Assembly: GCA_013180625.2 (NCBI GenBank)
Contig: SNVD02009837.1
Span: forward strand, 310,001-374,000
Length of the DNA: 64,000 bases
Direction of reading: 5' to 3'
DNA from: Boswellia sacra
Taxonomy: Eukaryota; Streptophyta; Magnoliopsida; Sapindales; Burseraceae
Shown here piece by piece: positions 37,903 through 63,748 of this stretch (its first letter is position 1; each line of letters opens with the position of its first letter). Both the position numbers and the translations under genes were made by a program. The notes below the pieces were generated by a model, which ran no database searches, was not told the DNA's origin, and saw only the letters and a program-made list of their open reading frames with translations.

Positions 37903-39002
37903 ATGCCAACACCTGAACCACAACCAGCTGCTGCTTCTCTTCCTAAATACTTGCTGGAAGATGAAATCACCCAAGAATGCAACAAATTGATCTCCTCTCT
38001 TCCCACTGAACCAGGTTGGGTTGCTAATCATCTCCATCAATACCAGGGCTTCTGGCACACAACCAGGCAGCTCCAAGGAGTTCTAACTTGTCAAAAGCAC
38101 TTCCAGGCTCAGGATTCTGATATCCTCCTTGTCACCACTCCTAAATCAGGTACCACTTGGTTGAAGGCTATAATATTTGCTTTGATGAACCGCTCAACCT
38201 ATGTTGATAATCCTGAGCAACACCCTTTGCTAAGAAACAACCCTCACGATCTTGTGCCCTTCCTGGAGCTTCAAGTCTACATGGAAAGTCATGATCCTGA
38301 CCTCACCAGCTTCACCTCTCCCAGGCTCTTTTCAACTCACCTGCCGTTTGTTTCGTTGCCAACTTCAGTGAAGGACTCATCTTGCAAGCTTGTCTACTTG
38401 TGTCGGGATCCTAAAGATAGCTTTGTCTCGCTTTGGCATTTCACAAACAGGTTGAGACCTAAAGAGAAGGGAAACAATTCTCTTGCGGAAACGTTTGAAA
38501 AGTTTTGCAATGGTGTGAGCTTGTATGGACCCTTTTGGGATCACGTTCTGGACTACTGGAAGGCGAGGTTGGAGAGACCTGAAAGGCTATATTTCCTGAA
38601 GTTTGAGGTGTGAGCTTGTATGGACCCTTTTGGGATCACGTTCTGGACTACTGGAAGGCGAGGTTGGAGAGACCTGAAAGGCTATATTTCCTGAAGTTTG
38701 AGGAAATGAAAGAGCAGCCTAGACTGCATTTGAGGAACCTTGCAGAGTTCCTGGGCTGCCCAATTTCTCCTGAAGAAGAAGCAAATGGCTTGGTGGATAA
38801 TATCCTGAAACTATGTAGCATCGATAATTTGAGGAACCTGGAGGTGAACAAAAGCGGAAAGATGTTCTCTGGCGAGGAGTTCAAGGCGTTTTTCCGGCGA
38901 GGAGAAGTCGGAGATTGGAAGAGTCATCTGACAGCTGAAATGGCAGAAAGGTTGGATCAAATCAGTGAAAAAAAGCTGCAAGGCTCAGGATTTAAATTTT
39001 AG
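37903..39002 (+). pseudogene. Cytosolic sulfotransferase broken by a 95-bp tandem duplication
   Basis: This intronless gene encodes a plant cytosolic sulfotransferase, which transfers sulfate from PAPS to a hydroxyl of a small acceptor such as a flavonoid, steroid or jasmonate. The first frame (37903-38613) holds the PAPS-binding loop TTPKSGTTWLKA (about residues 78-89), the catalytic-His region RLFSTHLPFV (His146) and the 3'-phosphate site YLCRDPKDSFVSLWHF (165-180). The rest, including FRRGEVGDWKSHLT near the C-terminus, lies in a second frame (38610-39002). The break is exactly a 95-bp direct repeat (38514-38608 and 38609-38703), which is not a multiple of three. Without the extra copy the frame would be 334 codons, the usual family length, and no other lesion is visible. 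The acceptor substrate cannot be told. Confidence 0.92.
38514..38703. repeat. Perfect 95-bp tandem duplication
   Basis: Two identical adjacent copies beginning TGTGAGCTTGTATGGACC and ending AAGTTTGAGG, inside the sulfotransferase reading frame. Perfect identity points to a recent event or an assembly artefact. Confidence 0.95.
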
Positions 39003-53680: not shown

Positions 53681-54622
53681 TTTTTTTTCTTTTGGAAAAA
53701 ATTAATAATTACATAAAAGAAAAACCATGATACATGAGACGAGGGGCATACCCCAAGCGAGTCACAAAGGACTCAAAAGTTCAAAAGGAAACACAGGATA
53801 AAACCAAATCCAAAAAGAAAAACAAAGGCCAAAACAACCCAAAACAAAGCAAAACAAAGCCAAAAAAGGCGCGTAGGCCTTAGCCAAAAGCCAAAACAAA
53901 ACTAGCCAACTACTCCCCAAATGGCACGAAACTGCATGGATATCACAAATTTGTCCTTTAGGGTTAGAACCCGAGTCCAAACCAATTCATAAATATCCCC
54001 TATGATCTCCGGATGAGTCCGATGTTGCTGCTCAAAAATAAGATTGTTTCTCTCATACCAGATAAAATAAATCATGACAAATAGAACCAACCGCGCAAGT
54101 ACATGTCTAAAATCCTTCTGGCTCTGAAGATGTAGGGAGGACCACCGAGGAAGCGAACCCAAAGAAAATGACAGCCATGTCATGAGAGTCTTCGCTGTCA
54201 TTTCTGGCCAAACAAAAGTAGAAAAAGGACATCGAAAGAAAATATGCCTATATGTCTTCGTATCTGATCACACAAAGCATATGTTGTAGACGACAGAATA
54301 CCATGACGCCAAAGACGATCCATAGTATGCAACCTCCCTAAAGAGGTAAGCCAAAGGATAAAAGAGTGTCTAGGGACATGGCCCGGGAACCAGAGAAGAT
54401 GATTAATAGAGTTCATCGATCGTCTAGCCCACAGCATATCCCAAGCTGAGTCAATGGAAAAGATACCCGAGGAATGCTCCTTCCAAACTCGATGATCTAG
54501 AGCCCCAACATTCAGGTGAAACCTAATTGAGTCTGAAATCAACTGAAGATCCGGCCCTCCAGGTGGAAAGACCTAATCCCCCTCCTGAATAATAGCCGAC
54601 ACCCTAGCATCCGGAGGTAGAC
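53681..54622 (-). pseudogene. LINE (L1-type) 3' part: zf-RVT region
   Basis: The minus-strand frames 54542-54198 and 54201-53902 encode the zinc-binding C-terminal region of plant LINE reverse transcriptases: VWKEHSSGIFSIDSAWD, HVPRHSFILWLTSLGRL, then an IYFIWYERNNLIFEQ element. One frameshift separates them. A poly(A) tail (poly-T on the plus strand at 53681-53688) marks the 3' end. The element is 5'-truncated and is interrupted by the LTR retrotransposon at 54623; its upstream remainder lies at 62810-62950. Confidence 0.85.
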
Positions 54623-56149
54623 TGATGAACACTTAAATATGCATGTTTAATAAGAGTTAGTTCATCATATTGCATTAATAGTGTCATTAAATTCCTCAAC
54701 TTAAGCATATTTGTAGCATTTGCATCTTTGGAATTAATTCCTCTTAATTTTGGTTTTGTTACAGGTTCGGTAAAATAGGTATAACTCTCTATTTATAGAT
54801 CAGAATGGTGCAAATATTAATGTTTTGGAAAGCTAATTCAATTGTCTACAAGATTGCATTTCAGAAGCATCATCAAATTCGAGCTCTTAGTGGACCAAAA
54901 TTGGGCTTGAAGTGAACCCATCTACAGTCTCGGCCCAGTCTGACCAGGCCTTAGTATTTGGACTGTATCTCTCAAAATACGTATCCAAATTGTGCAAATC
55001 AATATGTTCTAGAAAGCTGAGAGAAATATCTACAACTTTCATGAAGACATGTGATTAAAATTCTCAACATTTCAATGTCAAACTTGATGGTCAAAGTCGG
55101 TGCCTAATGATCCCAATTGTCAAAGATATTTACAACTAATATTTGACAATTATGCCCTTGTAATTTGACAAGTTTGCCCCTGGATGTATCTATAAATAGA
55201 GGTGCCTTGTGACCCATTAGGGCATCTTGGCCTTGGCTGGAACATTTTGGCTTTGGCTAGGATCTTGTATTGTGTTTTGTGTGTTTATGTTATTAATGAA
55301 TTTCCTTTTTCTTGCATTTTATTTTCTTTCTATTATAATGTTCTTCTAATTTCTCTTTTGCTAAGGTGAAAGGGTGAAACCCTTGATATGAGAATAAGGA
55401 TTCTCTAACCCTTAATATGTGCTTAATAATCTTAATCTTATAATGTTTATTCAATATGATTTATATTTAATTTCTTAATCAATCTTGACACCACTCGTAA
55501 AGTGGAGGTCTTGATCCATTGTCGACAATCCTTGGCACATCAAATGCTTGGATCCTTTCTAGATGATGTATGGTTCTTCCTTACCGACACGAATCTAGTT
55601 AGGAACCTTGATTTGTTGTAGACATATGTGATTGGCACATTGGATGCTTGAACCCATTTACAAGAAGTGGTATAAATATTGGTAATGAAACAAATATAAT
55701 TCATATAACTAAAATGGGTTAATTATCCTTATTTGAAATATCAAGGGCGGATCCCCTAACCTTAGCCTTCATTGTTATTGTGTTAATTCCTCTTGTATTT
55801 TAATTATTCTATTGTTTATGAACTTTTTATTTTATTTACTATGGCAGGTTCTACCACCGTATGAAATTGTTCTTTAATTTACTATGGTTGGTTATACCAC
55901 CTATTTCTATGGATGGTTTTACCTCCTCTTGCTTTTTGTTTCATATTTGAATGGTCGGTAATACCGCCTACCATCTTACATATTTATTGATATTATCTTG
56001 TCATTTCTTTGAATCATCCATATAACATTTGCTTATCTTATAATTTGTAACGCTTAAATTCCCTTCCTTGTGGATCGACCCCGGTCTTACCGGGTCTATT
56101 ACTTCGACACTCCTATACTTGGGAGACAATCCCTTTTTCGGATGTGTCA
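54623..56149 (+). repeat. 5' LTR of the LOG-carrying retrotransposon
   Basis: 1,527 bp, TGATGAACAC to GGATGTGTCA. CTATAAATAGAGG at about 55190-55202 is a good TATA box, so transcription should start around 55225. Confidence 0.92.
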
Positions 56150-56155
56150 AGTTTT

Positions 56156-56172
56156 TGGCGCCGTTGCCGGGG
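56156..56172 (+). other. Primer-binding site
   Basis: TGGCGCCGTTGCCGGGG lies a few bases after the 5' LTR. This site is characteristic of Athila/Tat-type plant Gypsy elements (tRNA-Asp primer is usually quoted). Confidence 0.85.
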
Positions 56173-56383
56173 AAGGTAAAAATTGGCGTACAAAATTGTA
56201 AGTATTCTCTTTTCTCATTTCTATTTTAATTTTTCTTGTATGTGTTTCTCTTTCTCTCCCCGTTTCTATTTTTATTTTTCTTGCATGTGCTCATCTTTTC
56301 TTTCTCTTTGCATTAGTTGGTAGAATTGTTTGTAGCCACTCATCTTCTTTGGAAAACATGCTCATACCCAACCAAGGACATTA

Positions 56384-58495
56384 ATGGATTACATAAGAAC
56401 TCATGCACAATCATGCATAGTCTTCCCTCATGATGTAAAATATTTCAACCATGAATCGGATTTCATTCAATTCTTACCCCACTTTCATGGCCTAGATGTT
56501 GAAAACCCATTTTTGCATTTGAGAGAATTTAAAGATTTTTGCAATATCTATTGTGACCTAAATTGTAGCATAAACATCTTTAGATTAAAGCTTTTTCCTT
56601 TTTCTTTAAAAGATAAAGCTAAAACATGGCTACAAAATCTTAGGTCAAGATCCATTAGTTCATGGGATGAAATGCAACAACAATTTTTGAAAAAATTCTT
56701 TCCTCCTTATAGAACAAATTCTCTCAAAGGGCAAATCATCAATTTCACTCAAAAACAGGGAGAGACCTTTTACCAATGTTGGGATAGGTATAAAGCATTG
56801 CTTAATACTTGTCCTCACCATGGTTTGGAAACATGGAGACTAGTTTTAATTTTCTATGAAGGTCTTACACATCAAGCTAGGCAAATGGTAGAATTAATGT
56901 GTAATGGACAATTTGAAAATAAAGACCCTGATGAAGCCATGGATTTCCTAGACTTACTAGCGAAAAATGCCCAAAATTGGAACAATGTTGGCACTTATGA
57001 GGTACCAAGAGCGTCTAGTAGAGGCATATATAACTTTAGGGAGAATCATGATCTATATGTTAAATTTACATCCCTAGCTAGGAAAGTCGAGGACTTAGAA
57101 ATATGGTCTATGCAAGAAACTATCTGTCAAACTTGTAAATCTAGTGATCATCCTACGGATGATTGCCCAATTGTGCCTACCTTTAGGAAAAGTCTCCATG
57201 AGCAAACCAACGTTTTAAACACTTTCCAAAGGTCAAATCCTAATCCTTACTCACAAAATTTTGGATGGAAAAATCACTTGAATTTTGATTGGAGGAATGA
57301 TAATAATGCACAATCTTACCAACCTTCCTTTCAATCATGTCAAAATTTTCAAAAAACTCATGATCATGCATCTTATAAGGATCTTGAAGAAACATGGAAT
57401 TCATTCATTGCAAAGCAAGAGGCTTTTAATAGTCAAGTTGCTCAAACTATGGCAAACTTGAATGATGCTCTTGAAAAACTTGCATTTGCATTTAGTACTC
57501 ATGAGAAAGGTGTGTTTCCATCTCAACTCGAGCCAAACCTCATCAATCCACATGTGAGTAATCCAAGTAGCCAACATCTAGATGAAGATTCGGTAAGTGC
57601 TCTTCTCGAAGATTCGGTAAGTGCTCTTCATGATGGTAAGGTTGATCAAGAACATATTCCTAACCCTTATGAGAAAGATGATGAATCAATCCTAAAGGGT
57701 AAGGAAGAGGTTAATCAACTTACACCTAACAAAGAAAAGACCGAATCCTCACTTATGCATCATGCAAAGGAATTTAACCAAAATTTTGATATTAATGAAT
57801 TTTTTGAGCATGATGAAAATGAGGAAGCTAATAGGACAAAAACTAACGTGGAAGACTATATCCAAAATGAGAATTTTTCAACTCCTTTGGAAATCGGGTT
57901 AACTAGTTCTTTTGAATCAAGTATGCAACTAGTGCCCATTGCTTCTAAAGAATTTTCATTGCTTGATTTTGTACAGGTGAAGAAGATTAAGAGTTGGGAG
58001 CCATGGTTCGAAAAAAGGCAGGAAGAAACAACCACACTCAGTAATGCATGCTTTAAGGACAAACAAACTCAGATAGTGGTAATCTCTTTCATTCTCATAA
58101 ATAAAGGAAAAAGAAAGGTACCACCTCAATGGCATATTTTTGACCGTGGTAAATCATTTTCGAAGAGATTCCTCTTTTTGCATTTCTTTATAATGATTGA
58201 TCAAATTTTATCCATCTATGCCATATTTTCATTTTTATTTTTATTCTTGATTTTTGCTATCATTTCTAGTTTGTTTTTATTTTATTTCGTGTGCGTTTAT
58301 TTTAGTTGTGTGTTTTTATTTAATTTTCCGGTCAAGTGGCGGATACAGTACTCCGTGGCTTTTGAAGTCGGTTTTTCAGTTCTAAAAACTGTTGCTCACC
58401 TTGCATCCATTTTCTTTTCTTCTCTCTCATTTTCTTCACATGGATACCATTCTCTCAAAATTGCACAAACATTTTCCCTCTCTTCCTCAAAATGA
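56384..58495 (+). CDS. Retrotransposon Gag (Athila-like), 703 aa
   Basis: Structural protein that packages the element RNA. The retrotransposon-Gag domain spans about residues 75-170 (AKTWLQNLRSRSISSWDE, FLKKFFPPYRTNSLK, GETFYQCWDRYKALLNTCPH). A CCHC knuckle follows at residues 248-261 (CQTCKSSDHPTDDC) and an acidic, Asn/Ser-rich middle. The frame is fully open. The last 90 residues include a strongly hydrophobic run (about 608-655, Phe/Leu/Ile-rich) that is unusual for Gag; it may be fortuitous translation of T-rich non-coding DNA where pol once was. The frame overlaps the next ORF by about 100 bases in a different frame. Confidence 0.88.
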   Translation: MDYIRTHAQSCIVFPHDVKYFNHESDFIQFLPHFHGLDVENPFLHLREFKDFCNIYCDLNCSINIFRLKLFPFSLKDKAKTWLQNLRSRSISSWDEMQQQFLKKFFPPYRTNSLKGQIINFTQKQGETFYQCWDRYKALLNTCPHHGLETWRLVLIFYEGLTHQARQMVELMCNGQFENKDPDEAMDFLDLLAKNAQNWNNVGTYEVPRASSRGIYNFRENHDLYVKFTSLARKVEDLEIWSMQETICQTCKSSDHPTDDCPIVPTFRKSLHEQTNVLNTFQRSNPNPYSQNFGWKNHLNFDWRNDNNAQSYQPSFQSCQNFQKTHDHASYKDLEETWNSFIAKQEAFNSQVAQTMANLNDALEKLAFAFSTHEKGVFPSQLEPNLINPHVSNPSSQHLDEDSVSALLEDSVSALHDGKVDQEHIPNPYEKDDESILKGKEEVNQLTPNKEKTESSLMHHAKEFNQNFDINEFFEHDENEEANRTKTNVEDYIQNENFSTPLEIGLTSSFESSMQLVPIASKEFSLLDFVQVKKIKSWEPWFEKRQEETTTLSNACFKDKQTQIVVISFILINKGKRKVPPQWHIFDRGKSFSKRFLFLHFFIMIDQILSIYAIFSFLFLFLIFAIISSLFLFYFVCVYFSCVFLFNFPVKWRIQYSVAFEVGFSVLKTVAHLASIFFSSLSFSSHGYHSLKIAQTFSLSSSK

Positions 58496-58988
58496 TTTGC
58501 TTAAAATTTATAAAGCTCGTGCAAAAAGACTAAGGTTGTTGATGCGTAAGGGTATTCCTGCAGATTTAAGATGGTTAATTGAAGCTAAGGTTCGATTCTC
58601 TTGTGAGTTTTCAAATAATCTTGTTTCCCATATGCCAGGTTTGGGAAAAAGCTCTTATGCCAAAAAGCGAAGAGCAAAAAGGTTACAAGTTTGTCACAAA
58701 TGTGCAAGATGGATTTGTAACCAGCGTTACCGCTCTTTGGGATATTTGTCTAACAATCGAGAGGATAAGCTACAGTTCATCAAGGATGGACTGAGTAAGG
58801 AGTCCTTGGATGATATCCGAGTGACTCTTGAGACGCATTCTTGTGGACTTGTGCAGCGTGAAATTTTTAATTTGTGGACACAATTCCGAGATGAGCAGGA
58901 ACGCTATAGTCTTGGGAATCTGACTCAAAACGACCCTGTTTGCCAGTTTATAAGAAAACTGGATGGGAAGCATATCCCCAACTCATAG
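58392..58988 (+). CDS. Unknown ORF between gag and LOG
   Basis: I do not recognise this 198-codon frame. A second Met at codon 17 (58440, MDTILSKLHKHFPSLPQ) may be the true start and would give 182 residues. The protein is basic, with ARAKRLRLLMRKGIP, a Cys pair motif CHKCARWIC around residue 105, then charged helix-like sequence (QREIFNLWTQFRDEQERYS) and a stop after KLDGKHIPNS. It has no retroviral protease, polymerase or integrase motif. It occupies the place of pol and lies 304 bases before the LOG start. It may be a second captured host sequence or an element-specific protein. Confidence 0.6.
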   Translation: MLTLHPFSFLLSHFLHMDTILSKLHKHFPSLPQNDLLKIYKARAKRLRLLMRKGIPADLRWLIEAKVRFSCEFSNNLVSHMPGLGKSSYAKKRRAKRLQVCHKCARWICNQRYRSLGYLSNNREDKLQFIKDGLSKESLDDIRVTLETHSCGLVQREIFNLWTQFRDEQERYSLGNLTQNDPVCQFIRKLDGKHIPNS

Positions 58989-59292
58989 AAGGTGTTTAAG
59001 CCGTTTCTGGACGTAAAACCAGAGGAAGATGTGAGCCACAGTCACAACTACCTGTACATATGCATGCGTGCCATCATTTTTGAATTTTAATACCTCATAG
59101 CTGTCATTTTTGAATTTGTATCTTTTGTTCGACTTATGTGTCTTATTTTGAATTTTTATGCATTATTGTCAAACTTTTCAACAAACAACCGAGCTACCTA
59201 GATAGATATCATCATTAGCATACCTTTTTGCACCCCATAAATACCACATCTCTTGTTCTCTTCTTCATACATAGTTAGAGAGTTGCATAGAC

Positions 59293-59944
59293 ATGGAGGG
59301 AACTTCAAAACGTCGAATCCAAAGGATATGTGTATTCTGTGTATCCCGACCGGGTAAAAGTGAGGAGTTTATAGAAGTAGCAAATTACCTTGGTAGACTA
59401 CTGGCTGAAAGAAAAGATTCATGTGGTTTATGGGGGAGGTAGCCTCAGGTTAATGGGTTGCGTATCAACAGCTGCACATGTAGGAGGTAGTCATGTGTTC
59501 GGAGTTATTCCTAAAGCTTTGGCTGTAGAAAGCATTATTGGAAAAACGGTTGGGAAGGAGTTACAGGTCTCCTCTATGCATGAACACATGGCACATATGC
59601 TCATCAATTCAGATGCCTTTATTGCTTTACCAGGTGGCTTTGGCACTCTTGAAGAAATTTTTCAAATTGCCTCTTGGGCCCAACTGAATCTCCATAAAAA
59701 ACCCATAGGTTTGTTGAATGTTAAAAATTTCTTTGATCCTTTGATAAGTTTTGTTGATGCAGCTATGGAACAAAATTTCATCTCTCATTCAGCGAGAAAG
59801 ATCCTTGTTTCTGCCACTTCTGCTGGTGAGTTACTGGACAAATTACAAGAAGTTGAGTATGAACCTGACCCAGCTAGTACTCAAATTAATTGGGCAGGAG
59901 GGCAAAACAAAAAGTGCAAATTGGATCTGAATCTCCGTTTATAA
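59293..59944 (+). pseudogene. LOG: LOG-like cytokinin riboside monophosphate phosphoribohydrolase, captured, one frameshift
   Basis: LOG enzymes release active cytokinin bases from their riboside 5'-monophosphates in the cytosol. From the ATG at 59293 the frame gives RICVFCVSRPG and a segment ending LLAERK; one surplus base near 59412-59416 then shifts it. From there 59390-59944 stays open with HVVYGGGSLRLMG, GVIPKAL, the hallmark LPGGFGTLEE and GLLNVKNFFD. Allowing for the extra base the length is 216 codons, normal for LOG, and there are no introns although plant LOG genes have several. The MHERKA motif reads MHEHMA, so an Arg thought to be catalytic is His. The C-terminus LDLNLRL is unusual. 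Position between gag and the polypurine tract shows it is retrotransposon cargo. Confidence 0.92.
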
Positions 59945-61276
59945 TTTTTTCTCTTGTCCTTTATTTTATTTTAGCATGTTATTTTATGAGTCTTTCAGGT
60001 CATCTCTCTTGAATAACAGAAGCTTCAGGTAATGTCTCCTATACTTTATCTCTCTACATTTAAACATTGAGGACAATGTTTCATTTGGTAGGGGGGGAAG
60101 GATAGTAGACATAAGTGTGTCTTGAATTTTATGTGTCTTGAATTTTTTTTCTTGCAAAAAAAAAAAAAGCGAGTTAGTAATTAGATTCAGAGTACGGTGT
60201 AAGGAGTTCAAATCCTCTTGAGACGTATTCTGGGTCAGGAATGGCAGAGTAGGGAGGACCAGTTTGAACTCTTGAAACCCATTCTAACCAATTTGTCATT
60301 TTATTTTGATTTTGTGAACTCATTTTAGCTAACTTGATATTATTTAGTCTTGATTTTTGAATTTTATAACAAGGAGGTCTTATTCATTTCACTTTGAATT
60401 ATTCAAATCTATAAACTCTCACAACCTTATCATTTAAAAATTGTGTGCTTATGTACTCATTAAGCAAGTATTCATGAACCTTTCTTCACACACACACATA
60501 CCTTGATGCATGATTGTGGATGGCAAAATGAAATGTTGTAATATTGAGTTCTTTTGTTTTGTTTAGGATAACAACACAAAGGAAGGGAAAAGTTAAAAAA
60601 AAAAAAAAAGTGAAAAAAAAGAAGAAGAGAGCAATTGTGGATAAGTTTGGTCTCGTAGCCTCCTTAATTTGAGCAATTAAGCCTGAGGGGTGCCTCAACA
60701 CCTAATACCCTAAGACCAACTGGTTTGGGAGCTATTGGCCCAAAGCTCGCTACATGGATTAAGGAGAAAGCTTAATGGGATTGAACATTGCACTATTCAC
60801 AAGTTTCTATGCAAAAATAAAGCATTAGTAACCCGAGTCGTTAAGCTCGAAGGGGTGTCTTAACACCTAATGCCCTAAGGCCAACTGGTCTGGGAGTCAT
60901 TAGCCTAAGGCTCGCTACATGGGTTAAAAATACATTCCTTAAAAAAAAAAGAGAAAAAAAATATATAAAATGAATAAATGCCCCTTACCTAAGGTTGTTA
61001 TCCTTAACAAATATTAGAACCGATATGGCTTCTTTCTAATAAGCCCCATAGTCATGTGTTGACTGAGCACAAAAAGAAGGTTTATAGATATCTTGACTGA
61101 AGGGTACATGAGCCATAAAAAAAATAATAATAATAATAATTGGTTGAGAGTTTATTTATTTGGATAAAATCAAGGAGAGTGCAATAATGACCACCTTGGA
61201 TGTAAAATTCTATAAATCACTTCTAAATAATAACGCTTTAATTGCTAGGGACTAGCAATAAGCTAGTTGGGGGGTG
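59945..61276. other. Element 3' untranslated region with duplicated block
   Basis: Non-coding. It contains poly(A)-like runs (60155-60168, 60596-60610) and two imperfect copies of a ~90-base block with TGCCTCAACACCTAAT, CCTAAGRCCAACTGG and CTCGCTACATGG (60650-60765 and 60840-60925). It ends in the polypurine tract. Confidence 0.7.
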
Positions 61277-62804
61277 TGATGAACACTTAAATATGCATGT
61301 TTAATAAGAGTTTAGTTCATCATATTGCATTAATAGTGTCATTAAATTCCTCAACTTAAGCATATTTGTAGCATTTACATCTTTGGAATTAATTTCTCTT
61401 AATTTTGGTTTTGTTACAGGTTCGGTAAAATGGGCATAACTCTCTATTTATAGATCAGAATGGTGCAATTCTTAATGTTTTGGAAATCTGATTCAATTGT
61501 CTACAAGATTGCATTTCACAAGCATCATCAAATTCGGGCTCTTAGTGGACCAAAATTGGGCTTGAAGTGAACCCATCTACAGTCTCGGCCCAGTCTGACC
61601 AGGCCTCAGTATTTGGACCGTATCTCTCAAAATACGTATCCAAATTATGTAAATCAATATGTTCTAGAAAGCTGAGAGAAATATCTACAACTTTCATGAA
61701 GACATGTGATTAAAATTCTAAACATTTCAATGTCAAACTTGATGGTCAAAATCGGTGCCTAATGATCCCAATTGTCAAAGATATTTACAACTAATATTTG
61801 ACAATTATGCCCTTATAATTTAACAAGTTTGCCCCCGGATGTATCTATAAATAGAGGTGCCTTGTGACCCATTAGGGCATCTTGGCCTTGGCTAGAACAT
61901 TTTGGCTTTGGCTAGGATCTTGTATTGTGTTTTGTGTGTTTATGTTATTAATGAATTTCCTTTTTCTTGCATTTTATTTTCTTTCTATTATAATGTTCTT
62001 CTAATTTCTCTTTTGCTAAGGTGAAAGGGTGAAACCCTTGATATGAGAATAAGGATTCTCTAACCCTTAATATGTGCTTAATAATCTTAATCTTATAACG
62101 TTTATTCAATATGTTTATATTTAATTTCTTAATCAATCTTGACACTACTCGTAAAGTGGAGGTCTTGATCCATTGTCGACAATCCTTGGCACATCAAATG
62201 CTTGGATCCTTTCTAGACGATGTATGGTTCTTCCTTACCGACACAAATCTAGTTAGGAACCTTGATTTGTTGTAGACATATAGTGATTGTCACATTGGAT
62301 GCTTGAACCCATTTACAAGAAGTGGTATAAATGTTGGTAATGAAACAAATATAATTCATATAACTAAAATGGGCTAATTATCCTTATTCGAAATATCAAG
62401 GGCAGATCCCCTAACCTTAGCCTTCATTGTTATTGTGTTAATTCCTCTTGTATTTTAATTATTCTATTGTTTATGAACTTTTTATTTTATTTACTATGGT
62501 AGGTTCTACCCCCTTATGAAATTGTTCTTTAATTTACTATTGTTGGTTATACCACCTATTTCTATGGATGGTTTTACCTCCTCTTGCTTTTTGTTTCATA
62601 TTTGAATGGTCGGTAATACCACCTACCATCTTACATATTTATTGATATTATCTTGTTATTTCTTTGAATCATCCATATCACATTTGCTTATCTTATAATT
62701 TGTAACGCTTAAATTCCCTTCCTTGTGGATTGACCCCGGTCTTATCGGGTTTATTACTTCGACACTCCTATACTTGGGAGACAATCCCTTTTTTGGATGT
62801 GTCA
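61277..62804 (+). repeat. 3' LTR of the LOG-carrying retrotransposon
   Basis: 1,528 bp, co-linear with the 5' LTR, starting TGATGAACAC right after the G-rich tract and ending GGATGTGTCA before TAGAC. Confidence 0.92.
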
Positions 62805-62950
62805 TAGACCTGTGGATGATAAAGGTTCGAAAAGAAAACAAATCACACAAGGGTCCCTACGGAAGCCAATAAGCCTGCCAAAGAGAGATGTCCCTGCCAT
62901 CTCCAATACAAGTGACAAATTTACCTTTACACCAATCCCTATTGAGAAAC
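62805..62950 (-). pseudogene. LINE fragment, upstream part
   Basis: On the minus strand this encodes IGDGRDISLWQAYWLP, as found just before the zf-RVT region of plant LINEs. It continues across the LTR retrotransposon into 54617 and below. The fragment stops at the telomere-like repeats, so the LINE is 5'-truncated there. Confidence 0.75.
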
Positions 62951-63049
62951 CCTAAAACCTAAACCCTAAACCCTAAAGAAACCCTAAACCTAAACCCTAA
63001 ACCCTAAAGAAACCCTAAAACCTAAACTCTAAACTCTAAACCCTTCAAA
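62951..63049. repeat. Interstitial telomere-like repeats (CCCTAAA-type)
   Basis: About a dozen perfect or slightly altered CCCTAAA units (variants AAACCT, CTCTAAA and CCCTAAAGAAA) lie in one orientation between the LINE fragment and the pararetrovirus fragment. A shorter tract of the same orientation lies at 53665-53680 on the other side of the LINE. Confidence 0.9.
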
Positions 63050-63748
63050 ATTACTTAAAGTTGATGTTGGAGTATTTTCTTCTATTTCTACTGTTAATAT
63101 TGTAGTTTCTCCTCTAGTATCTTGTAATCTATATCTTGGATTAAATTCTAAACTAGTTTGTTTAAAATATATCCTATAAAGTAATAAATACCCATGTCTA
63201 TTTTGTGTAAAAACTGATTCCCACATATGAATATTTAAAACTAATGTGCCTAACATTGTTCGATCATGAAGACTAACTTCAAAGTTTGGCACACAATTAA
63301 AATAAATAGCACCGTTACAAAGGTTTGACAACACAATTCCTAATAAAGAGTCTTGAAATTTTGATTGTGTTTTATCTCTTAATAACATTAATACTGGAGA
63401 ATCTATTCCTATTTTTGATAATGGTATAATGGCTATTTGTATTAATCCAAAGTCTGTATAATTAAATCCTTTTTGTTTATAATTTTCTATAGCTAGTTGA
63501 CTAAGCAATCTTATCTCTTCAAATTCATTTTGTAAAGTTATAATTTCTTCGTGTTCTTTTATCGAATAAGCAGTTTTGAAGTCAAATATTCCTATTTCAT
63601 ATATACTATTTGGTGAAATGCTGGGTAATATATTTTTGTTTAAACTTTGTTTGATATTAGTAATTTTTGTCATTATTTCTCTTGAACTAATTACCTTTGA
63701 CATTTTTCTAGATTTAGAATTTAGATATTTTCTAACTGTAGATGCCAT
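63029..63748 (-). CDS. Endogenous caulimovirid movement-protein-like ORF (copy 2)
   Basis: A 239-codon frame, uninterrupted from the ATG at 63748, matches the broken frame at 23626-24309 along its length, including the NLCNGAIYFNCVPNFEVSL region typical of caulimovirid movement proteins. The last residues (after about 63052) come from the telomere-like repeat and not from the virus, so the true C-terminus is missing. Upstream (63749-64000) the same leader and the end of the small ORF seen at 23370-23625 follow in the same order. This is a viral fossil in host DNA, truncated by the window edge and by the repeat junction. Confidence 0.8.
   Translation of the reverse strand: MASTVRKYLNSKSRKMSKVISSREIMTKITNIKQSLNKNILPSISPNSIYEIGIFDFKTAYSIKEHEEIITLQNEFEEIRLLSQLAIENYKQKGFNYTDFGLIQIAIIPLSKIGIDSPVLMLLRDKTQSKFQDSLLGIVLSNLCNGAIYFNCVPNFEVSLHDRTMLGTLVLNIHMWESVFTQNRHGYLLLYRIYFKQTSLEFNPRYRLQDTRGETTILTVEIEENTPTSTLSNFEGFRV

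Follow-up and report, generated by a model that had tools for sequence, protein, structure and literature searches.

A stretch of 64,000 nucleotides of the Boswellia sacra genome (contig SNVD02009837.1, positions 310,001 to 374,000; hereafter the window) contains a long terminal repeat (LTR) retrotransposon that carries two accessory genes downstream of Gag and in which no pol region was found. On profile evidence the first gene, NABP, is related to nucleic-acid-binding, cysteine-rich proteins found in flexuous RNA viruses of plants, and the second is a homologue of LOG, an enzyme that normally makes active cytokinin. We consider it probable that the element is a pol-less member of an abundant family in which NABP and LOG have been kept by selection and in which both would have host-manipulating roles. 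The portions of the element on which this reading turns, with L001 standing for a LOG-less relative, are as follows:

58440..58988, + strand: NABP open reading frame (ORF), intact, 182 aa; carlavirus-type nucleic-acid-binding, cysteine-rich protein with basic KKRRAKR; the fourth cysteine (C97) is a tyrosine
58989..59061, + strand: conserved stretch past the NABP stop, L001 differing at 9 of 72 bases; in-frame reading KVFKPFLDVKPEEDVSHSHNY
59062..60023, + strand: LOG-bearing segment, which replaces 113 bases of L001
59293..59415, + strand: about 41 codons of the N-terminal part of LOG in a first frame, which is then lost
59417..59944, + strand: remainder of LOG in another frame; PGGFGTLEE, R98 to H, K99 to M, E124 to Q, C-terminal tail KCKLDLNLRL

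NABP is related to nucleic-acid-binding proteins of plant RNA viruses

The NABP frame passes the curated Pfam cut-offs of both Viral_NABP (PF05515; 34.4 bits, cut-off 23) and Carla_C4 (PF01623; 28.7 bits, cut-off 20.9). Among 480 candidates, 459 relatives were found at E ≤10, and the best 120 are 56-76% identical; in an alignment of 24 family members, at E ≤0.001, PF05515 was found in 21 and PF01623 in 18. Across the 120 relatives the family's basic motif, which resembles a nuclear signal, is well conserved, with the commonest residue at positions K75-R78 present in 108-115, and the adjoining cysteines C85, C88, C93 and C97 are kept in 109-118. C97 itself is kept in 114 of the 120 and in 21 of the 22 intact NABPs of the B. 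sacra genome, the sole exception being the window copy. When a structure model of NABP, built with 80 aligned relatives (predicted local distance difference test score, pLDDT, 72.7), was compared with the viral structures of BFVD, 17 of the top 23 rows were named plant-virus nucleic-acid- or RNA-binding proteins or silencing suppressors, while the other six comprised two more plant-virus proteins and four unnamed ones. By profile, NABP is homologous to the carlavirus-type proteins of plant flexuous RNA viruses. Viral proteins of this type are reported to include silencing suppressors and pathogenicity determinants and to have nuclear signals, and that of chrysanthemum virus B is reported to be a transcription factor causing hyperplasia (PMC12172455).

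Conservation continues beyond the NABP stop, where the nine differences between the window and L001 fall at codon positions 1, 2 and 3 in the numbers 1, 4 and 4. A peptide like KAFKPLLDVKPEEDVSHNHNY is conserved in frame there, and the annotated proteins P0072 and P0260 read straight into it. Read-through of the stop may account for this, as may truncation of the C-terminus or conservation of an RNA element. It also enters into another explanation, namely that the accessory region acts as nucleic acid, with LOG-like small RNAs silencing host LOG or with RNA elements around NABP serving packaging. Indeed, conserved non-coding stretches flank NABP and the nine differences follow the codon pattern just given, but element and host LOGs are only about 49% identical in protein (median, first 60 of 119 element LOGs against 48 host LOGs), which would make them poor small-RNA targets, and dN/dS (nonsynonymous over synonymous substitution rates) well below 1 in both genes points to protein function. 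We regard this explanation as very improbable.

LOG follows NABP in an abundant retrotransposon family

The search of the B. sacra genome covered 638.6 Mb in 7,431 contigs, and only the best candidates were scored, so that the counts are lower bounds. At least 150 matches to the LOG domain PF03641 pass its cut-off (150 of 150 scored), and in none of those scored is the match interrupted by a stop; there are at least 150 NABP matches that are 93-100% identical to the window (150 of 150 scored) and at least 40 LTR matches that are 96-100% identical (40 of 40 scored). Two sets of copies were read, 23 picked by NABP (L014-L016 and L037-L056) and 20 picked by LOG from the top of the list (L017-L036), the latter set being biased toward well-kept LOGs. 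LOG lies downstream of NABP in 22 of the 23 NABP-picked copies. Among the LOG-picked copies NABP is upstream in 19 of 20, integrase in six and Gag in three, two of these Gags being distant. L014-L016 all have an integrase upstream, and their NABPs are 97-98% identical to that of the window. An earlier note on this DNA had proposed that LOG stands in place of pol: no pol was found in the element, as it said, but relatives have LOG behind integrase and NABP, and the most fitting reading of the window copy is therefore a derivative without pol in which the 3′ region was kept. Its expectation of further LOG-bearing copies at the same place is borne out by the NABP-picked set, and unbroken LOGs occur as well (16 of 43 in the B. 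sacra genome by a strict frame rule).

The pol-less form is itself represented more than once. A second full element without pol, L024 (8,197 bp), has a GAGAG duplication, an LTR divergence of 0.016 (Kimura two-parameter distance, K2P) and the same layout as the 8.2-kb window element, to which it is 91.7% identical internally. On contig C6554, judged by coordinates alone, two LTRs spanning 8,210 bases have NABP between them, with an intact LOG (L056). These further copies suggest that the gag-NABP-LOG form multiplies as such, with pol presumably coming from relatives.

Linkage is also seen in the annotated proteins of other plants. For example, NABP and LOG are joined in Acer (P0260) and Rhamnella (P0110), integrase and NABP in Rhamnella (P0076), and Gag and LOG in Acer (P0296), and in Xanthoceras LOG and NABP bear the adjacent locus tags 032186 and 032187. 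The link between NABP and LOG is shown for the B. sacra genome and, in parts, for Acer, Xanthoceras and Rhamnella.

L001, a plant-like 3.3-kb contig (DAIEQH010000041.1), has the order integrase, NABP, CATTGAGGACAATG motif and G tract, the integrase being marked by rve and Integrase_H2C2 domains. Its alignment with the window has 757 columns around NABP (76%) and resumes for 82 columns after LOG; between the two blocks are 113 bases in L001 as compared to 962 bases, including LOG, in the window. This contig is filed under a bacterial metagenome-assembled genome (Candidatus Nomurabacteria), probably by contamination, and encodes a plant-type retrotransposon integrase as well as NABP. In the other LOG subfamily of the B. 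sacra genome (L018, L022, L026, L033, L035 and L036) the spacer between NABP and LOG is repeat-like, with GACAAGTGTGG...CCACCGAAAG recurring.

These alignments bear on the idea that LOG is a separate retrocopy of the LINE (long interspersed nuclear element) type that was inserted later into this one element. An 11-base repeat, TTATGTGTCTT, at 59134 and 60129 does bracket the LOG region, and a run of 13 A follows at 60156. However, 14 of 300 shuffled sequences produced a shared word of at least 11 bases, the run of A is on the far side of the CATTGAGGACAATG block that the window has in common with L001, and 22 of the 23 NABP-picked copies have LOG behind NABP. We rejected this idea, which the position of LOG in other copies contradicts, and give it almost no credence. 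Neither outcome that the earlier note had set against its own account, an absence of LOG from other copies or a separate retrocopy, materialised.

Element LOGs form a single clade, mostly with a changed pocket and tail

The LOG tree was built from 67 proteins (43 element LOGs including the window part, 21 labelled host, two bacterial and one mislabelled, P0265), and in it the element LOGs form one clade (support 98/94, branch 0.39), apart from the sampled host and bacterial LOGs; P0265 groups with the host LOGs. The named species, rosids as well as asterids, belong to Malvales, Sapindales, Malpighiales, Rosales and Lamiales. Given one clade over several plant families, the capture of LOG does not look recent or local. 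Names of host hormone genes are attached to several LOGs that resemble the element clade, namely P0190, P0225 (Populus LOGL10), P0210 (Primulina LOG3-like) and P0138 (Melia); P0190, P0210 and P0138 fall inside the clade, and P0225 is absent from the tree.

In a bacterial LOG structure, the equivalents of Arg98 and Glu121 (AtLOG3 numbering) are proposed to be catalytic and those of Lys99 and Glu124 are in the inferred site of the prenyl group (PMC4979012). The 119 element LOGs largely keep the catalytic pair (R98 in 111, E121 in 116) along with W128 (118), and K99 and E124 are each found in none of them. All four residues are kept in 48 of 48 host LOGs. At the C-terminus, an LxLxL motif is present in 104 of the 119 element LOGs and a nearby basic cluster in 110, as compared to 0 of 48 host LOGs for either. 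A group of 24 Sapindales-type copies has R98 in 22, K99 in 24 and E124 in 22, with the LxLxL motif in one and the basic cluster in 13, and P0263 is intermediate, combining a host-like pocket with the new tail.

A different role for LOG could be drawn from these residues. LxLxL, known as an 'EAR motif', can bind TOPLESS. Both genes might be kept while LOG now serves as a regulatory or binding protein, its pocket lost and its basic LxLxL tail recruiting a co-repressor (e.g. TOPLESS) so as to change host or element chromatin. The loss of both equivalents of the prenyl-pocket residues of PMC4979012 from all 119 element LOGs, and the restriction of tail and basic cluster to element LOGs, agree with such a role. 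Yet R98, E121 and the PGGxGTxxE loop are largely kept, which a pure adaptor would not need, and among the 24 Sapindales-type copies the pocket is mostly intact and the tail is present in one only. We view a purely regulatory LOG as rather unlikely.

Substitution patterns point to purifying selection on both genes

For NABP, window versus L001 gives a dN/dS of 0.22 (NG86) or 0.17 (YN00) over 182 codons, with a codon bootstrap of 0.12-0.34. The 22 NABP copies of the B. sacra genome, including that of the window, have a median of 0.23 against L001 (22 of 22 pairs usable) and 0.30 among themselves (161 of 231 pairs usable). For LOG, the window type against the other subfamily has a median dN/dS of 0.18 (63 of 63 pairs usable) at a median dS of 1.27, and the medians within the subfamilies are 0.27 (34 of 36 usable) and 0.19 (21 of 21). 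The in-frame part of the window LOG gives 0.35 (8 of 9 usable) and 0.12 (7 of 7) against the two groups, and the codon bootstrap for one representative pair, L024 and L018, is 0.11-0.30. Every usable pair, LOG and NABP alike, is below 1, as the earlier note had anticipated for LOG. In a neutral simulation without indels, 25 of 1,000 frames were stop-free at 60% protein identity. Among intact copies, the pattern indicates purifying selection on both genes.

This pattern bears directly on the earlier note's own model, capture of a spliced LOG transcript by a non-autonomous element, when this is taken as a recent, passive event that spread unselected cargo. The window LOG is in fact intronless, broken and lodged in a pol-less element, as that model would have it. 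LOG nevertheless sits at the same place in integrase-bearing relatives, a single LOG clade extends over plant families, and the group median dN/dS values are 0.12-0.35. Contradicted on these three counts, recent unselected cargo was rejected, and we hold it to be extremely improbable.

The LOG and the element in the window

The homology of the window gene to LOG is certain (PF03641, 127 bits, cut-off 27), and its closest solved structure is 2a33, Arabidopsis At2g37210. The reading frame, described earlier as full-length, is not: from the ATG at 59293 it encodes LOG for about 41 codons, then departs from it and stops, and the rest of LOG, in another frame, ends at 59944. PGGFGTLEE and E121 are kept, and the catalytic Arg98 is a histidine. 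Since MHER stands at this site in all nine other intact window-type LOGs read in the B. sacra genome, the histidine is private to the window copy among those compared. An assembly error in the base count of an A run is a possible source of the frame change. The frame change together with the loss of Arg98 means that this copy should not yield normal LOG by ordinary decoding. The absence of introns fits capture from a spliced transcript.

The element itself is structurally complete apart from pol:

54618..54622: left target-site duplication, TAGAC
54623-62804, + strand: LTR retrotransposon, structurally complete, pol-less
54623..56149, + strand: 5′ LTR (TGATGAACAC...GTGTCA), 1,527 bases
56156..56173, + strand: primer-binding site TGGCGCCGTTGCCGGGGA, just inside the 5′ LTR; identical sequence in copy L024
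56384..58495, + strand: Gag ORF, 703 codons; PF03732, 73.3 bits, cut-off 24.1; CCHC zinc knuckle
60065..60103, + strand: CATTGAGGACAATG motif, then an internal G-rich tract; also present in L001
61269..61276, + strand: polypurine tract GGGGGGTG, G-rich, adjoining the 3′ LTR; same in L024
61277..62804, + strand: 3′ LTR, 1,528 bases
62805..62809: right target-site duplication, TAGAC

The LTRs of about 1.5 kb, 5-bp TAGAC duplication, primer site, polypurine tract and open Gag frame that had been reported were all verified in the sequence, and together they identify an LTR retrotransposon. The T-rich 3′ part of the Gag ORF probably extends beyond the true end of Gag. The LTRs differ at 40 of 1,526 aligned columns (30 transitions, 10 transversions; K2P 0.027), which corresponds roughly to an age of 1-2 million years at substitution rates taken as 1.3e-8 and 7e-9. 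The primer site is presumably a match to the 3′ end of a plant tRNA-Asp. The name Athila for this element is an assumption based on the literature and on the primer site. The element does not qualify as autonomous, which would call for a pol with protease, reverse transcriptase, RNase H and integrase: Gag is the only Pfam domain in the long ORF, although profiles for reverse transcriptase and protease were not run on broken frames. Its placement in Ty3/gypsy is tentative, as no pol was found in the window and the relatives, L001 and those in the B. sacra genome, show integrase upstream; an integrase elsewhere in the element or window was considered and rejected, as tblastn with the L001 integrase ORF gave no match anywhere in either.

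Several other features lie in the window. Just 5′ of the element a zf-RVT domain (PF13966; 54201-54542, - strand) is a probable LINE remnant, and CCCTAAA-rich telomere-like repeats lie directly outside the 3′ LTR (62945-63045). A 239-aa ORF at 63029-63748 (- strand) has a viral movement-protein domain (PF01107, 41 bits, cut-off 23) and resembles the endogenous caulimovirid (pararetrovirus) fragments of plants. Farther away, at 37903-38613 (+ strand), is a sulfotransferase ORF (PF00685, 165 bits).

A possible host-manipulation module

On the reading that we favour, one ancient element would have taken a host LOG behind a NABP that was already present, and the pair would have been retained because it aids multiplication of the element. 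NABP would most likely act like its viral relatives, as a zinc-finger protein of the nucleus that dampens RNA silencing or alters host transcription. LOG, in turn, would most likely act on a nucleotide 5′-monophosphate through its changed pocket and, with its basic tail resembling a repressor motif, shift the state of dividing cells; given the altered pocket, the product may not be cytokinin. The gag-only form would have lost pol and would still amplify by borrowing it from pol-bearing relatives. The gain for the element would be weaker silencing and cells driven to divide. The functions of both proteins are inferred from their sequences. More tentatively, and with less confidence than we place in selective retention of the pair, one may see here a rosid and asterid LTR lineage turned virus-like by a host-manipulation module, in which a silencing suppressor or zinc-finger regulator of RNA-virus type and a re-tooled LOG counter silencing and promote divisions favourable to transposition.

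A number of observations weigh against selective retention of two host-directed proteins. The window copy itself has a damaged LOG and a damaged NABP; with LOG broken and a presumed zinc ligand missing from NABP, this copy is probably a passive passenger. Only 16 of 43 LOGs in the B. sacra genome, and 8 of 23 in the NABP-picked set, are intact by the strict frame rule, and a stop is present in 25 of the 150 NABP matches listed, so that many copies must be dead. NABP occurs without LOG in L001 and likewise in L055, and LOG is thus not needed by every family member. The structure model of NABP is middling (pLDDT 72.7), and with a best BFVD E of 0.037, none below 0.001, and TM-scores by query length of at most 0.39, every single fold match is weak; the Pfam match to viral proteins spans about 85 of the 182 residues. 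The spread across plants rests on database proteins rather than their DNA, and the bootstrap of the LOG tree is not fully settled. The dN/dS values were computed from intact frames only and are biased downwards, and single LOG pairs within subfamilies reach 0.975. The low ratio between the deeply separated LOG subfamilies is harder to explain by this bias.

Should the inferred workings of the module hold, a plant retrotransposon whose copies can be counted in a genome would be using a protein of a viral silencing-suppressor family, and retrotransposon escape from plant RNA silencing would become directly testable. Some 'LOG' genes in databases would then be element genes. The element LOGs would also be a natural experiment on the substrate specificity of LOG, and the finding is relevant to the exchange of genes between RNA viruses and retroelements.

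Comparison with known systems

Non-autonomous LTR elements of the TR-GAG type consist of LTRs and Gag without pol. The present element shares this organisation and adds two accessory genes. An abstract by Steinbauerova et al. (2011) reportedly described two Athila-like elements with similarity to LOGL4. A LOG-type (YgdH) domain inside Ty3/gypsy elements, comparable to the LOG found here, has been described for Citrus sinensis and C. clementina, and for Populus trichocarpa only without the filter of that study, which cites Steinbauerova et al. 2011 for an earlier report (PMC9289625). The earlier note was right that the element carries LOG, but LOG in plant Ty3/gypsy elements was already in print (PMC9289625), and its companion NABP had been missed. 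With respect to the available parts of PMC9289625, what is new is the pol-less copy, the linked NABP, the evidence for a single origin, purifying selection, pocket change and LxLxL tail, and the additional plant families. For NABP in retrotransposons no earlier report was found among the open-licence literature, and words for NABP are absent from PMC11963269 and PMC9289625; the available parts of PMC11593424 and PMC3866579 contain nothing on element LOGs.

Host-type genes in LTR retrotransposons have other precedents. Maize Bs1 is likewise an LTR element with host gene sequence (PMC7264820), but unlike Bs1 the present family keeps whole genes across plant families. Gypsy elements of Phalaenopsis have likewise acquired an ORF for an enzyme of host type, the N6-methyladenosine demethylase AlkB, with which they are proposed to counteract control by the host; the same study points out plant RNA viruses that encode AlkB (PMC9289625). 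There the enzyme is a different one, it was found only in Phalaenopsis and its demethylase activity has been shown (PMC9289625), whereas the present element is known from sequence.

The closest parallels to NABP as an accessory protein come from a retrotransposon and from viruses. In sunflower, proteins of additional ORFs in Tekay elements are retrotransposon accessory proteins proposed to modulate RNA silencing; they are said to resemble proteins with double-stranded-RNA-binding motifs, lie at the 5′ end of the element and belong to the chromovirus (Tekay) lineage (PMC11728184). The cysteine-rich proteins of carlaviruses and mandariviruses share with the NABP family the basic motif, a presumed small cysteine zinc finger and the combination of Viral_NABP and Carla_C4 (PMC12172455). 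They are encoded by RNA viruses, while the 182-aa NABP is encoded by an element and has conserved NREDK and RKLDGK motifs that may be its own.

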